Shown piece by piece: positions 760-8,473 of a stretch of 8,473 nucleotides of DNA (position 1 is the first letter of the stretch; each line of letters opens with the position of its first letter). Source of the stretch: Candidatus Undinarchaeales archaeon SRR5007147.bin71 (lineage in GTDB: Archaea > Undinarchaeota > Undinarchaeia > Undinarchaeales > Undinarchaeaceae); contig DVAE01000004.1 of the NCBI GenBank assembly GCA_014189675.1, positions 1 through 8,473 on the forward strand, given 5' to 3'. Below the pieces are notes generated by a model. That model searched no databases. It was not told the DNA's origin and saw only the letters and a program-made list of their open reading frames with translations. The position numbers and the translations under genes were made by a program.

Positions 760-1170
760 TTATTCCTCAGATTTTCTGAGACTTACGCGTGCGAGTCCTT
801 CCTTGTTTTTCTCAACACTTACTCGTATGCTTGCTGGGGATTTCTTGTATCCGCGTTTCCAAATTTTCTCGTTAAGCTCTGGATCTATGTATATTGCAGT
901 AGGTTTTATGTGCTGTTCTATGTAGCTTCTTACTCGTTTTGAAGCATCCTTCGCTTTCGAAGTAGTATTATATTGTTTTCTGAGTGGGATGGTGTAAACT
1001 CTTGTCAAAACAGCCTTAAATTCTTCTACTGGCTCCTCTTCCTTTGATTTCTTCTGCTTTTTAGGAACTTCTTCAGCTTTAACAGTCTCTGCTTCCTCAA
1101 GTTTTTCAGGCTTCTCAGTCTTTTTCGCCTTCTTGGCAGTTTTTGTATCTTTTTTAGTAGTTTCAGCCAT
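760..1170 (-). CDS. rpl31e: Large-subunit ribosomal protein eL31 with Lys/Glu-rich N-terminal extension
   Basis: The conserved eL31 domain occupies about residues 50-136, recognised by 'AVLTRVYTIPLRKQYNTTSK', 'ASKRVRSYIEQHIKP' and 'IDPELNEKIWKRG'. eL31 sits near the peptide exit tunnel on the outside of the 50S subunit. The family is usually about 85-95 residues, so residues 1-50 are an extension. It is almost all Lys, Glu, Ala and Thr with no hydrophobic core, so probably disordered. The start was chosen because its ATG overlaps the eL39 stop by one base (TAATG), typical of coupled translation. An internal start that would remove the extension is not evident: no Met occurs between the initiator and the domain. 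Similar charged tails occur on uL22 and uS3 in this window. Confidence 0.92.
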   Translation of the reverse strand: MAETTKKDTKTAKKAKKTEKPEKLEEAETVKAEEVPKKQKKSKEEEPVEEFKAVLTRVYTIPLRKQYNTTSKAKDASKRVRSYIEQHIKPTAIYIDPELNEKIWKRGYKKSPASIRVSVEKNKEGLARVSLRKSEE

Positions 1171-1402: not shown

Positions 1403-1786
1403 TCACTTATAGCGCTTTTCGTGGACAAGGACGTTCCCTATCCTTCGCATCATTACAAAACCGTAGCCCCATAGGACTGGAAGCCAGAGGGGCATTCCGA
1501 AGAGGGTTTGATCGACAAATGTCTGTTTCCATGTGAATTGGTGGTAGAGGGCGTCTCCTGCCCATTCCATTGTAAAGCCTACAATGGTTCCGAGAATGAA
1601 AACCTTCCATTCATTTCTTTCATAGCGGACTGCAAAGTTCGCCAAAATCAATACTATGATTGTCAGAAGTATAAGAAGCTCGGCCATCACTATCTTCGTT
1701 ATGAAAAGTGCTAGGAACATCAGTCCAACCTCAATGGCGATTTCTGTTTCCGGCCTGTCCCCAATTTTTTTTATCCTTTCAAACAT
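1403..1786 (-). CDS. Small multi-pass membrane protein of unknown function
   Basis: I do not recognise the family. The 127-residue protein has a charged N terminus and probably four membrane segments: about 17-34, 35-53, 62-75 and 96-113, with the first two separated only by a short turn. The second half carries a motif-like run: G-T-x-x-G-F-x-x-E74-W75-x-G77-D78 in the third segment, then F96-G-M-P-L-W101-L-P-V-L-W106-G in the fourth, followed by a positively charged cytosolic-looking end (MMRRIG, then HEKRYK). Polar and acidic residues within membrane helices, plus conserved-looking Gly/Pro/Trp, suggest a small integral membrane enzyme or transport-related protein, but this is only shape. 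It lies alone between tRNA-Ser and eL39, both on the same strand. A possible BRE/TATA pair sits about 45 nt upstream. Confidence 0.75.
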   Translation of the reverse strand: MFERIKKIGDRPETEIAIEVGLMFLALFITKIVMAELLILLTIIVLILANFAVRYERNEWKVFILGTIVGFTMEWAGDALYHQFTWKQTFVDQTLFGMPLWLPVLWGYGFVMMRRIGNVLVHEKRYK

Positions 1787-1840: not shown

Positions 1841-1857
1841 GTAATGAAAATACTGAG

Positions 1858-1940
1858 CGCCGCGAGTCGGATTTGAACCGACATGTCCCGGAGGACCCGG
1901 TTTTCGAGACCGGTGCAATACCAGATTATGCGATCGCGGC
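1858..1940 (-). tRNA. tRNA-Ser (anticodon CGA)
   Basis: The 83-nt minus-strand sequence folds as a type II tRNA. The acceptor stem is GCCGCGA paired with TCGCGGC (7 bp) with discriminator G. The D arm has a short GCA/TGC stem with TGG in the loop. The anticodon stem CCGGT/ACCGG encloses the loop CTCGAAA, giving anticodon CGA (reads UCG, serine). A long variable arm with stem GTCC/GGAC and loop TCCG is diagnostic of Ser or Leu. The T arm is GTCGG-TTCAAAT-CCGAC. The G discriminator also fits serine. There is no intron, and the 3' CCA is not encoded (the following bases are CTC), so CCA must be added by the nucleotidyltransferase. Confidence 0.97.
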
Positions 1941-2051: not shown

Positions 2052-2960
2052 CTAACTCTTCTTCCGCAAAGCCCACTCTTGCTTTATTACATTGGATTCT
2101 GCATTTCCGTTTTTGTTTGCTACGCGACCAACTTTTCCAGCCCTCTCTAGCTTGTAGAGTTCGTTCACAATAACGCTTGATGAGATCTTGAGTACGGATG
2201 CGATGTCGTCTGCGTTCATACTTGCCTGTGCTCCGAGTGAGTCACTTATTTGCTGCCCAAGATTTTCTTCTGCTTTAGCGCTTTCCTCAGGCGTTTTTCT
2301 CGGAGATCTTGAAGTTTCCATATTTCCGAGCTTCTTTCCCGCCTTTTCTACATGTTCTCTTAATTTATCTTGCACTTTCTTGTCATGAGCATTTACTATT
2401 TTAGACACTTTTCCGCTCAGGTCAAGATCATTTGTCATCAGGGCAATTCCGTACTGGCTCGCAAAACTTTTCGCGTAGTCCGCAAGGTCTCTGTTTGTGA
2501 CGAGTATAGCGTTTGACGGTAGGAGATCAACAGTCTTTGCGACTAGATCGCCTACTGCTCTTGCGTCTATTCTATTTGAAGCTTCATCAGGCATTTGCCT
2601 GCATTCTATTATGAGTTCAGGACTCTTCCCTGCTGGAGGCACCTTGTGGCTTCCACTGTATAGCACGAAGTCAGGGATGTGCCTTGCTCCTGAACCTCCC
2701 CGAATTGGTAATCTGTGCCACACACTCATTGGGTTGTAATCTGTTCTCATCACAAGTATAGGCGGATCGCGGGGGCTTGTTGACTGCTTTAAAGACTCTT
2801 CACCATCTACTTCAACAAATTCGTTCTTGAGACTGTTGAAAATTTCTTCTTCAAGTGTAAGTTCTTGTATATTCTTCTCTGCTTTTAGGCCCTCTAGTCC
2901 GGGTCCCCCTTCTTCAATATAATGTTCCTGAACCTTTTTCTTGAAAATTCCAAGTGCCAT
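2052..2960 (-). CDS. Mrr-like restriction-endonuclease-fold protein with C-terminal winged helix
   Basis: This 302-residue protein has three parts. Residues 1-65 are charged and helical. Residues 66-185 look like a PD-(D/E)xK nuclease core of the Mrr type: 'HIPDFVLY' supplies P96-D97, a strand 'ELIIECRQ' supplies E119-C-R121, and 'NAILVTNRDLADYAKSFASQ' followed by 'GIALMTND' (150-178) matches the Mrr pattern of an 'ilvT' strand, helix and 'gi.l' strand. The usual (D/E)xK lysine is replaced by Arg, so catalysis is uncertain. After a charged linker (190-245), residues 248-300 form a winged helix ('ADDIASVLKISSSVIVNELYKLERAGKVGRV'). A role in DNA cleavage, repair or DNA binding is inference. The start at 2960 was preferred over an upstream ATG at 3029 because a TATA box lies 25 nt before it and the extra residues overlap the promoter region. 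No methylase or other partner is adjacent. Confidence 0.7.
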   Translation of the reverse strand: MALGIFKKKVQEHYIEEGGPGLEGLKAEKNIQELTLEEEIFNSLKNEFVEVDGEESLKQSTSPRDPPILVMRTDYNPMSVWHRLPIRGGSGARHIPDFVLYSGSHKVPPAGKSPELIIECRQMPDEASNRIDARAVGDLVAKTVDLLPSNAILVTNRDLADYAKSFASQYGIALMTNDLDLSGKVSKIVNAHDKKVQDKLREHVEKAGKKLGNMETSRSPRKTPEESAKAEENLGQQISDSLGAQASMNADDIASVLKISSSVIVNELYKLERAGKVGRVANKNGNAESNVIKQEWALRKKS

Positions 2961-2980
2961 AAAAATGAATATATTTCCTA

Positions 2981-2990
2981 GATATAAATC
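2981..2990 (-). promoter_or_regulatory. TATA box of the nuclease-like gene
   Basis: On the minus strand the site reads GATTTATATC, centred about 25 nt before the ATG at 2960. The spacing fits leaderless transcription and supports that start. Confidence 0.6.
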
Positions 2991-3005
2991 CTTTTCCGTA
3001 TAAGC

Positions 3006-3017
3006 AAATATATAAAT
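3006..3017 (+). promoter_or_regulatory. TATA box of the thioredoxin-like gene (divergent promoter)
   Basis: The sequence AAATATATAAAT is centred about 27 nt before the ATG at 3039, consistent with a leaderless transcript. The box is nearly palindromic and lies about 25 bp from the opposing TATA box, so the two divergent genes share a 78-bp control region. Confidence 0.6.
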
Positions 3018-3038
3018 TAAGTCAGGCACTTCTATACT

Positions 3039-3425
3039 ATGTCTAAGAAAACTATATTTCTCACTGTTTCTCTTATTGTAATTATATCTGGGGTCCTACT
3101 TTTCAAACCCCAAGTTTCCGGTTTCATAACATTGGGTCACGATTATACTCTTGACAGTTTTACGGAGTGTCTTGCTGAGAATAATGCTATTATGTATGGT
3201 GCTTACTGGTGTCCTCACTGCACCACTCAGAAGGAAATGTTCGGTGACAGCCTGTCTGGAGTTCTTTACATTGAGTGTGATTCTAAAGGAAAAAATGCAA
3301 AACCAGAGCTCTGTAGGCAAAATAACGTACAATCCTATCCTACTTGGATAATCAGTGGAACGAAATATTCAGGAGTTCAGTCTCTTCAGGATCTTTCTGA
3401 TATAACTGGTTGTAGCCTCGAGTGA
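3039..3425 (+). CDS. Membrane-anchored thioredoxin-like protein, VKOR-partner type
   Basis: The 128-residue protein starts with KK and one hydrophobic segment (about residues 5-22), an uncleaved anchor or signal peptide. A small thioredoxin fold follows. The redox motif is C58-P-H-C61 in 'YGAYWCPHCTTQKEMFG'; 'YIECDSKGKNA' and 'LCRQNNVQSYPTWII' (cis-Pro P101) follow, and it ends with 'YSGVQSLQDLSDITG'. This is very close in pattern to the thioredoxin domain fused to or partnered with bacterial and archaeal vitamin K epoxide reductase (VKOR) homologues, which form disulfides in exported proteins. Further cysteines at 44, 80, 92 and 125 (C80 and C92 also occur in that family) could form a structural or relay disulfide. 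It is expected to act outside the cytoplasmic membrane. No VKOR or DsbB gene is visible nearby, so its redox partner is elsewhere or different. Confidence 0.85.
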   Translation: MSKKTIFLTVSLIVIISGVLLFKPQVSGFITLGHDYTLDSFTECLAENNAIMYGAYWCPHCTTQKEMFGDSLSGVLYIECDSKGKNAKPELCRQNNVQSYPTWIISGTKYSGVQSLQDLSDITGCSLE

Positions 3426-6794: not shown

Positions 6795-7559
6795 ATGGCG
6801 AAACTAGGATACACATATCAAGGAGATAAGGAAGGCATTGTAAAAGCTTTGGTTAAATCAGAGAGGATTTCTCCAAAAGAAGCCTATGAGCTTGCAAATG
6901 CCATCCGGTCTATGAGTCTTCCTAGAGCTGAGACATTCTTGAGCAATGTCATGGAGAAGAAAGAGGCAGTTCCTTATCGCAGGTTCAATAGAGGTGTTTC
7001 CCACAGGAAGAAAATTGGTCCTGGAAGATACCCACTAAACACAAGCAAGGGCTTTATGAAAGCTCTAAGACTTTTGAGGGCAAACGCAGTCTATAAAGGT
7101 ATGGAGGCAGACAGTCTTGAGTTGTTCCATGTTGCCACTCACCGCGGGGAAATAAATCCGGGCAGATACAAAGGAGGGGCACATAATCATCCTACTGTCC
7201 ATATAGAACTTGTTGCAAAAGAGTCAGTTTCTATTCAGAAAAAAGAAGATGAAAAACCAGCAGAAAAGAAAGTAGAGCTTAAAACTGAGAAGAAATCTGA
7301 AGATAAGAAAGCTGTTGTAAAAGAGAAAAAAGCAAAAACTGAGAAGAAATCTGAAGTAAAGCTTCCTAAGGGGAAGTCGGTAGAAAAAGGCGAGAACAAA
7401 GAGAAGCCACGAAAAGTAAGTGGGAAAATTTCAAAGGCGGACGCAAAACCGGCAAGCGAGAAAACAACAGACGATCTTATAAGTGAGGCAGAAGGGGTAA
7501 TGGATGCAGAGCCAAAAACTTCTGATGTCTCGGAAAAAGATGATGAGGTGTCAAAGTAA
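6795..7559 (+). CDS. rpl22: Large-subunit ribosomal protein uL22 with long Lys/Glu-rich C-terminal tail
   Basis: Residues 1-141 are the archaeal uL22 domain: 'ERISPKEAYELANAIRSMSL', 'VPYRRFNRGVSHRK', 'GRYPLNTSKGFMKALRLLRANAVYKGM', and the end 'VHIELVAKE'. uL22 binds 23S rRNA, and its beta-hairpin lines the exit tunnel opposite the uL4 loop. The hairpin here (about 117-134, 'HRGEINPGRYKGGAHNHP') appears shorter than the archaeal norm and lacks the usual 'pRA.GRA' tip. Residues 142-254 are an added tail rich in Lys, Glu, Ser and Asp; most archaeal uL22 proteins end near 150-160. The tail contains an identical 22-base direct repeat (7281-7302 and 7335-7356). Its stop overlaps the uS3 start by one base (TAATG). 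Confidence 0.94.
   Translation: MAKLGYTYQGDKEGIVKALVKSERISPKEAYELANAIRSMSLPRAETFLSNVMEKKEAVPYRRFNRGVSHRKKIGPGRYPLNTSKGFMKALRLLRANAVYKGMEADSLELFHVATHRGEINPGRYKGGAHNHPTVHIELVAKESVSIQKKEDEKPAEKKVELKTEKKSEDKKAVVKEKKAKTEKKSEVKLPKGKSVEKGENKEKPRKVSGKISKADAKPASEKTTDDLISEAEGVMDAEPKTSDVSEKDDEVSK
7281..7356 (+). repeat. Direct repeat inside the uL22 tail
   Basis: An identical 22-base segment occurs at 7281-7302 and again at 7335-7356, 54 bases apart and in frame, encoding KTEKKSE both times. The intervening bases include the block shared with the uS3 repeats (7316-7337). Confidence 0.85.
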
Positions 7560-8473
7560 TGGCGATTGAAAGAAAGCTGATAAAAGAGTCTATAGATAAA
7601 GTTAAGGTGAAGAAATTCGTTCTTGATAGTCTTGATAATGTTGGTGTAGGCAGTGTTGATGTTAAGAGAACTCCTCTTGGAACACGTATCATTGTTACCG
7701 CTGTCAAGCCAGGTCTTGTTATTGGAAGAAAGGGAAAGAACATACAGATGCTCACAAGTGAGTTGTCAAAAAGATTCAATCTAGAGAATCCTCAGATAGA
7801 GGTTCAGGAAGTCGAGATCCCTGAGTTCAATCCAGCTATTATGGCTGAGCAGCTTGTTTCAACTATAGAGAGGGGCATACATTTCAGGAGGGCCTCACAC
7901 AGTCTTATTAAAAGAATTATGGGTAAAGGAGCACTTGGGGTCCTAATAGAGATAAGTGGAAAGTTGAGTGGAGAAAGGTCAAGAAAGGAGAAGTTCATGG
8001 CAGGATATATAAAATATTCTGGGGAGACAGCTCTGCAGTCTGTTTCAACTTCTGTTAAACAGGCAAAGAGAAAGGCCGGAGTTATTGGGGTCAAAATTAG
8101 AGTTGCACCTCCTTCAGATCCTGTTAAGTTGGCTGCTCTCGTTCTGGATGACAGTCAGATTATTTCTGAATCTATCGAGATGAATGGCAAGGAGGCTAAG
8201 GATGAATTGCAGAAACTCCAGGATTCTATAAGTGAATCCTCAAACAAGTCTACTGATCTAAGTCCTGTCCAGCCAGATAGTACTAAGAAGGTCTCTGTAA
8301 AAGAGAAAAAAGCAAAAGCTCCTAAGAAGGCTGCTGTAAAAGAGAAAAAAGCAAAAGCTCCTAAGAAGGCCTCTGTAAAAGAGAAAAAAGCAAAAGCTCC
8401 TAAGAAGGCTGCTGTAAAAGAGAAAAAAGCAAAAGCTCCTAAGAAGGCTGCTGTAAAAGAGAAAAAAGCAAAA
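7559..8473 (+). CDS. rps3: Small-subunit ribosomal protein uS3 with tandem-repeat Lys/Ala tail (runs off the right edge)
   Basis: The frame is open for 305 codons with no stop in the window. The N-terminal KH domain contains the RNA-binding loop G56-R-K-G59 in 'VKPGLVIGRKGKNIQML'. The C-terminal uS3 domain follows with 'EFNPAIMAEQLVSTIERG', 'FRRASHSLIKRIM', 'GVLIEISGKLSGERSRKEKF' and 'GVIGVKIRVAPP' (to about 185). uS3 lies at the mRNA entry channel of the 30S head. Archaeal uS3 is usually about 200-260 residues. After a Ser-rich linker (about 222-242) the protein enters 13-residue repeats KKAAVKEKKAKAP from K243 to the edge. The start overlaps the uL22 stop. Residue composition suggests a disordered, strongly positive tail able to bind RNA. 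Confidence 0.95.
   Translation, partial: MAIERKLIKESIDKVKVKKFVLDSLDNVGVGSVDVKRTPLGTRIIVTAVKPGLVIGRKGKNIQMLTSELSKRFNLENPQIEVQEVEIPEFNPAIMAEQLVSTIERGIHFRRASHSLIKRIMGKGALGVLIEISGKLSGERSRKEKFMAGYIKYSGETALQSVSTSVKQAKRKAGVIGVKIRVAPPSDPVKLAALVLDDSQIISESIEMNGKEAKDELQKLQDSISESSNKSTDLSPVQPDSTKKVSVKEKKAKAPKKAAVKEKKAKAPKKASVKEKKAKAPKKAAVKEKKAKAPKKAAVKEKKAK
8285..8473 (+). repeat. 39-bp tandem repeat within uS3 (at least 4.8 copies)
   Basis: Copies start at 8285, 8324, 8363, 8402 and 8441; the fifth is cut by the window edge after 33 bases. All are in frame and differ only in codons 3-4 of the unit (GTC TCT, GCT GCT, GCC TCT, GCT GCT, GCT GCT). The alternation of copies 1 and 3 with 2 and 4 hints at an older 78-bp doublet. 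Confidence 0.97.

Follow-up and report, generated by a model that had tools for sequence, protein, structure and literature searches.

Segments of low complexity that are rich in Ala, Glu and Lys are frequent in the ribosomal proteins of prokaryotes, and archaeal S3 is listed among the examples in the available part of PMC6821194. In insects, RPS6 of mosquito and L22 and L23a of Drosophila carry H1-like extensions of approximately 100–170 aa that are rich in Lys, Ala and Glu, and the mosquito RPS6 tail is retained on the mature protein (PMC548281). An independent origin has been reported for the insect tails of RpL23a and RpS6, according to a reference in the available part of PMC11764897. Comparable tails are described for AlgP of Pseudomonas, whose KPAA repeats form a disordered Lys/Ala C-terminus with a repeat number that varies between isolates. 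Moreover, AlgP and PhaF are two proteins of one genome with highly similar tails (PMC9239181). In Chlamydia, the protein Hc2 (HctB) contains lysine-rich tandem elements, the duplication and deletion of which result in size variants (PMC2848022).

The locus described here is an archaeal uS3 gene with a lysine-rich tandem array at its 3′ end. It lies in a window of 8473 bp, i.e., the whole stretch of DNA that was analysed, which is the entire contig C25 of a metagenome-assembled genome of an uncultivated archaeon (623,718 bp in 39 contigs, estimated 83% complete). UBA55 and ARS1358 are the nearest relatives of this genome, followed by Thermoplasmatota, and on the basis of the relatives found, the host genome and UBA55 are placed in Thermoplasmatota. 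The uS3 gene has an S10-operon context, with uS19 and uL22 upstream and, in UBA55 and ARS1358, uL29 as the next gene. The features of the window are listed in Table 1.

Table 1. Coordinates of the features in the window.
Feature	Position	Strand	Length	Remarks
eL31	760-1170	-		N-terminal Lys/Glu-rich extension of ~50 residues
ORF	1403-1786	-	127 aa	Small membrane protein-like; no match in Pfam or NCBIfam
tRNA-Ser (CGA)	1857-1940	-		
ORF	2052-3029	-	325 aa	No Pfam or NCBIfam match
Small secreted/membrane-anchored thioredoxin/glutaredoxin-like protein	3039-3425	+		CPHC motif; immediately upstream of uL3; weak NCBIfam match TIGR02196, below cut-off
uL22 (rplV) ORF	6795-7559	+	254 aa	Pfam Ribosomal_L22, residues 21-141
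Lys/Glu-rich C-terminal extension of uL22	7221-7559	+	112 aa	Such length only in this genus among compared genomes
uL22-tail module	7245-7333	+		85/89 nt identical to uS5 N-terminal extension (contig C35: 437-525)
uL22-tail part matching uS3 unit	7304-7337	+		32/34 nt; 21-mer core identical
uS3 (rpsC) ORF	7559-8473	+	305 codons	Open at contig end; identified from Pfam and relatives
Ser/Asp/Glu-rich linker, S3_C core to array	8126-8284	+		Mostly low pLDDT; one predicted helix, residues 213-227
In-frame uS3 array	8285-8473	+	39 bp x 4.85	Truncated by contig end

The array at the end of uS3

The uS3 reading frame encodes the Pfam domains KH_2 (residues 16–88, 1.6e-15) and Ribosomal_S3_C (residues 101–182, 3.7e-21). 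The array is in frame with both domains, and the initial annotation rightly took the repeats to extend uS3. The units have 13 residues each and are, in order, KKVSVKEKKAKAP, KKAAVKEKKAKAP, KKASVKEKKAKAP, KKAAVKEKKAKAP and KKAAVKEKKAK.... They lie head to tail, in frame and nearly identical, as in a coding tandem repeat, and the reading frame is kept because the unit length is a multiple of three. TRF places the array at 8283–8473, with a period of 39, 4.9 copies and 96% matches. At a lag of 39, identity is 145/152 (0.953), while codon shuffles (n = 2000) averaged 0.39 and did not exceed 0.57, which bears out the near-identical 39-bp repeats reported before. Units 1 (KKVSVKEKKAKAP) and 3 (KKASVKEKKAKAP) deviate from units 2, 4 and 5 at unit positions 8–10 only, and copies 2, 4 and 5 are indeed identical over the visible bases. 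The further claim that even synonymous positions are unchanged is slightly too strong, as one of the inter-unit changes is synonymous (GCC versus GCT, both Ala). Because units 1/3 and 2/4 pair, with a lag-78 identity of 110/113, the pattern suggests that a 78-bp dimer may have been duplicated within the array.

Of the 63 residues that the array encodes, 30 are Lys, 16 are Ala and 5 are Glu. The tail is probably disordered: in the AlphaFold model, the N-terminal part of uS3 is predicted with confidence and the tail has a pLDDT of ~40–45, without structure. The H1-like composition that had been noted is in line with these properties.

Counted from 8285, copy 5 of the array breaks off after 33 bases at the contig end, and the 4.85 copies are a lower bound. 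Contig C22 of the same genome has its first base one position before the uL29 ATG, and in UBA55 this ATG overlaps the stop codon of uS3. Therefore, the piece missing between C25 and C22 is the remainder of the uS3 tail. The terminal base of C25 is the point at which the path to a next unit in UBA55 (GCT) and the exit from the array (ACT) diverge, and this end position would be as expected for a repeat that the assembly could not span.

uS3 tails in related genomes

In UBA55, the uS3 core is 94% identical to that of the window and is followed by three diverged units (KKELSKVKKAKAP, KKALVKETKAKAP and KKAIVKETKAKTE), the exit from the array (KAKTE...) and the stop codon. In ARS1358, the core is 87% identical and the Lys-rich tail has a different sequence, without the array of the window. 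Counted in one genome per species, the copy number is thus approximately 5 or more in the window genome, 3 in UBA55 and none in ARS1358, and the variation in repeat number anticipated by the initial annotation is seen between species. The three units of UBA55 resemble one another far less than do the units of the window. Because the latter are near-identical while the cores of the two genomes differ by 25 synonymous differences in 200 codons, the array was expanded or homogenised after the split from UBA55, which upholds the recent expansion or homogenisation proposed earlier.

Across the phylum, the 57 complete uS3 tails (UBA55 and ARS1358 included) range from 37 to 199 residues in length. 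Their net charge is negative in 49 cases and positive in 7. Since the C-terminus is acidic in 49 of the 57, the positive charge seen in the window does not represent a conserved property of uS3. Counted from the LQKLQ motif on, the three congeners have net charges of +23 (window), +8 (UBA55) and +10 (ARS1358). DNA tandem repeats were detected in 24 of 58 uS3 tails (TRF, low threshold). Thus, a tendency of the uS3 tail to form repeats is nothing unusual for the phylum, but its positive charge is. One acidic tail, from Methanomassiliicoccales (L062, JAUVWO010000083), has a perfect 36-bp repeat of 3.5 copies, PVEEPIEEPIET, that is ended by the contig edge. A tail of 199 residues from Thermoplasmata (L039, JAEHCN010000017) has an 81-bp repeat of 2.2 copies with 97% matches. 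A duplicated 203-bp stretch near uS3 at a further locus (L066) was dismissed, since it adjoins runs of N and looks like a scaffolding duplicate.

DNA common to uL22, uS3 and uS5

The uS3 unit is linked at the DNA level to uL22 and uS5, which the initial annotation had missed. The genome contains the 21-base core of the unit at one further site, which lies in the C-terminal tail of the adjacent uL22. BLAST with the uS3 array and the uL22 tail retrieved a uS5 gene on contig C35, where the match falls in its N-terminal extension, and genome-wide searches of the window genome gave strong-scoring module matches in uL22, uS3 and uS5 only. The uL22 tail has approximately 100 residues in this genus versus 5–16 residues in other genomes. 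No match to the uS3 unit was found in the viral contigs scanned. In the regions compared, the DNA of the eL31 extension does not match any of the shared modules.

Sharing of this kind is also found in the congeners. In UBA55, uL22 and uS5 have 54/58 nt in common, and a scaffold gap masks the part of uS5 that follows. In ARS1358, uL22 and uS3 have 88/96 nt in common within one 173-kb contig, yet the sequence involved is a different one: it was not found in the window genome, and the three genomes contain no other strong match to it. Among the compared loci of the phylum, sharing between uL22 and uS3 within 3 kb of uS3 was seen in ARS1358 only, and 28 Thermoplasmatota genomes outside the genus have no DNA common to the uL22-uS3 region and uS5. 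In a comparison of three congeneric genomes, two of them fragmented, the DNA demonstrates at least two separate sharing events. The uL22 tail of ARS1358 (L010/L014) contains an internal 44-bp duplication (38/44) in addition to the copy shared with uS3.

The first copying between uL22 and uS5 took place before the window genome and UBA55 diverged. Over 58 nt, the uL22 and uS5 copies show 2 and 4 differences within genomes versus 2 and 5 between genomes, and these four copies yield no clean tree. Because the sharing predates the split and the four copies lack a clean tree, repeated conversion at this pair is not proven. In the window genome, uL22 and uS5 both carry a 21-bp insertion, which was considered as a case of clean concerted evolution. 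This case is weakened, as uS5 of UBA55 is N-masked at that place, and a slippage deletion between imperfect repeats can account for the indel in uL22.

Origin of the tails and comparison with known systems

It is fairly probable that these disordered tails of ribosomal proteins grow through tandem duplication and through the transfer of copies from one ribosomal-protein gene to another. Since pieces of the same DNA are found in the tails of uS3, uL22 and uS5, intragenomic DNA copying seems to underlie both the growth and the spread of the tails. The raw material would be a small set of DNA modules in this genus that code for Lys, Glu and Ala, and that may have moved among the three tails by ectopic recombination or gene conversion. 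The uS3 array would then be a recently grown, disordered and basic C-terminal extension on an otherwise normal archaeal uS3, formed by in-frame tandem duplication of the unit via replication slippage or unequal recombination, probably in part as 78-bp dimers.

Other origins of the similarity have to be weighed. That the array and the common segments were produced by assembly, through repeat collapse or expansion or through chimerism, is highly improbable. While the window terminates inside the array with the next contig starting at the uL29 ATG, and the UBA55 scaffold gap lies directly after the shared part of uS5, units 1, 2 and 3 differ and are therefore not stuttered copies of one read. Moreover, UBA55 is a separate assembly that has its own three-unit 39-bp array, contiguous up to the stop codon, and the sharing in ARS1358 has 8 differences and lies inside a single contig. 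Very little credence can be given to convergence, in which low-complexity coding for Lys, Glu and Ala and a biased codon choice would yield similar tails without copying. The tails do use few codon types, and the available part of PMC11764897 cites a title in which the lysine-rich tails of mosquito RpS6 and RpL23a are called independently evolved (Hernandez and Fallon, 2007). However, codon-shuffled tails never came near the observed scores of the main pairs: with 1000 shuffles each, the score was 158 versus a maximum of 46 for uL22 and uS5 of the window genome, 152 versus 46 for uL22 and uS3 of ARS1358, 96 versus 38 for a further main tail pair and 65 versus 43 for uL22 and uS3 of the window genome. 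In addition, the match of 85/89 includes the less simple stretch PAEKKVELKT, and such uS5 matches are absent from the 28 other Thermoplasmatota genomes.

A selected device, in which interactions with mRNA or rRNA at the site of uS3 would be tuned by repeat number and the uL22 and uS5 modules would be kept alike through the same job, is considered unlikely. It would fit the net positive charge of the uS3 tails in all three congeners and the link between nucleic-acid binding and lysine-rich low-complexity regions given in the available part of PMC6821194. On the other hand, most relatives in the phylum are acidic at the same position of uS3, the sequence and architecture of the tail vary between the congeners, and the net charge of their uL22 tails is close to zero (+3, -4 and -3).

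With low confidence, the tail may be regarded as a polycation under loose constraint, which would bind rRNA or other RNA in its vicinity non-specifically and whose length and exact sequence would be under weak selection. Tail lengths that vary from 37 to 199 aa, a mostly acidic character and predicted disorder are as expected of a weakly constrained segment. From its position at the entry channel, contact of the uS3 tail with mRNA is a weak suggestion. A genus-wide, actively recombining pool of tails is rather unlikely. In such a pool, modules would pass repeatedly among uL22, uS3 and uS5 and undergo tandem expansion, the tails of different ribosomal proteins would co-evolve, and strains would differ in the tail length of their ribosomes.

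Ribosomal proteins serve as slowly evolving, vertical markers, and the extensions described here apparently consist of DNA that was copied from one ribosomal-protein gene to another and expanded in tandem. In genomes with such tails, assembly breaks and truncated ribosomal-protein models are likely. The tails also provide a natural case for the tolerance of the ribosome to changes in tail length and charge.

Because Lys/Ala repeat tails are already known, the uS3 array alone is one more case of a familiar type. Hc2 is a chromatin protein with 36-aa elements, the variation of which was found in 378 specimens (PMC2848022), whereas uS3 is ribosomal and has 13-residue units. AlgP and PhaF are DNA-binding granule or nucleoid proteins with another unit, for which strain variation was shown; the uS3 array was compared between species. 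The available part of PMC6821194 treats composition and prevalence, and near-identical DNA arrays or sharing of tail DNA between genes are not described in that part. A literature search, chiefly of open-licence papers, found no report of exchange between the tails of ribosomal proteins, and the sharing of tail modules as DNA between different ribosomal-protein genes is possibly the new part. The insect tails are eukaryotic and their resemblance to H1 is ascribed to convergence (PMC548281), whereas the archaeal tails have DNA in common. Gain of an extension by copying and tandem growth would be a route unlike the independent origin reported for the lysine-rich tails of insects.
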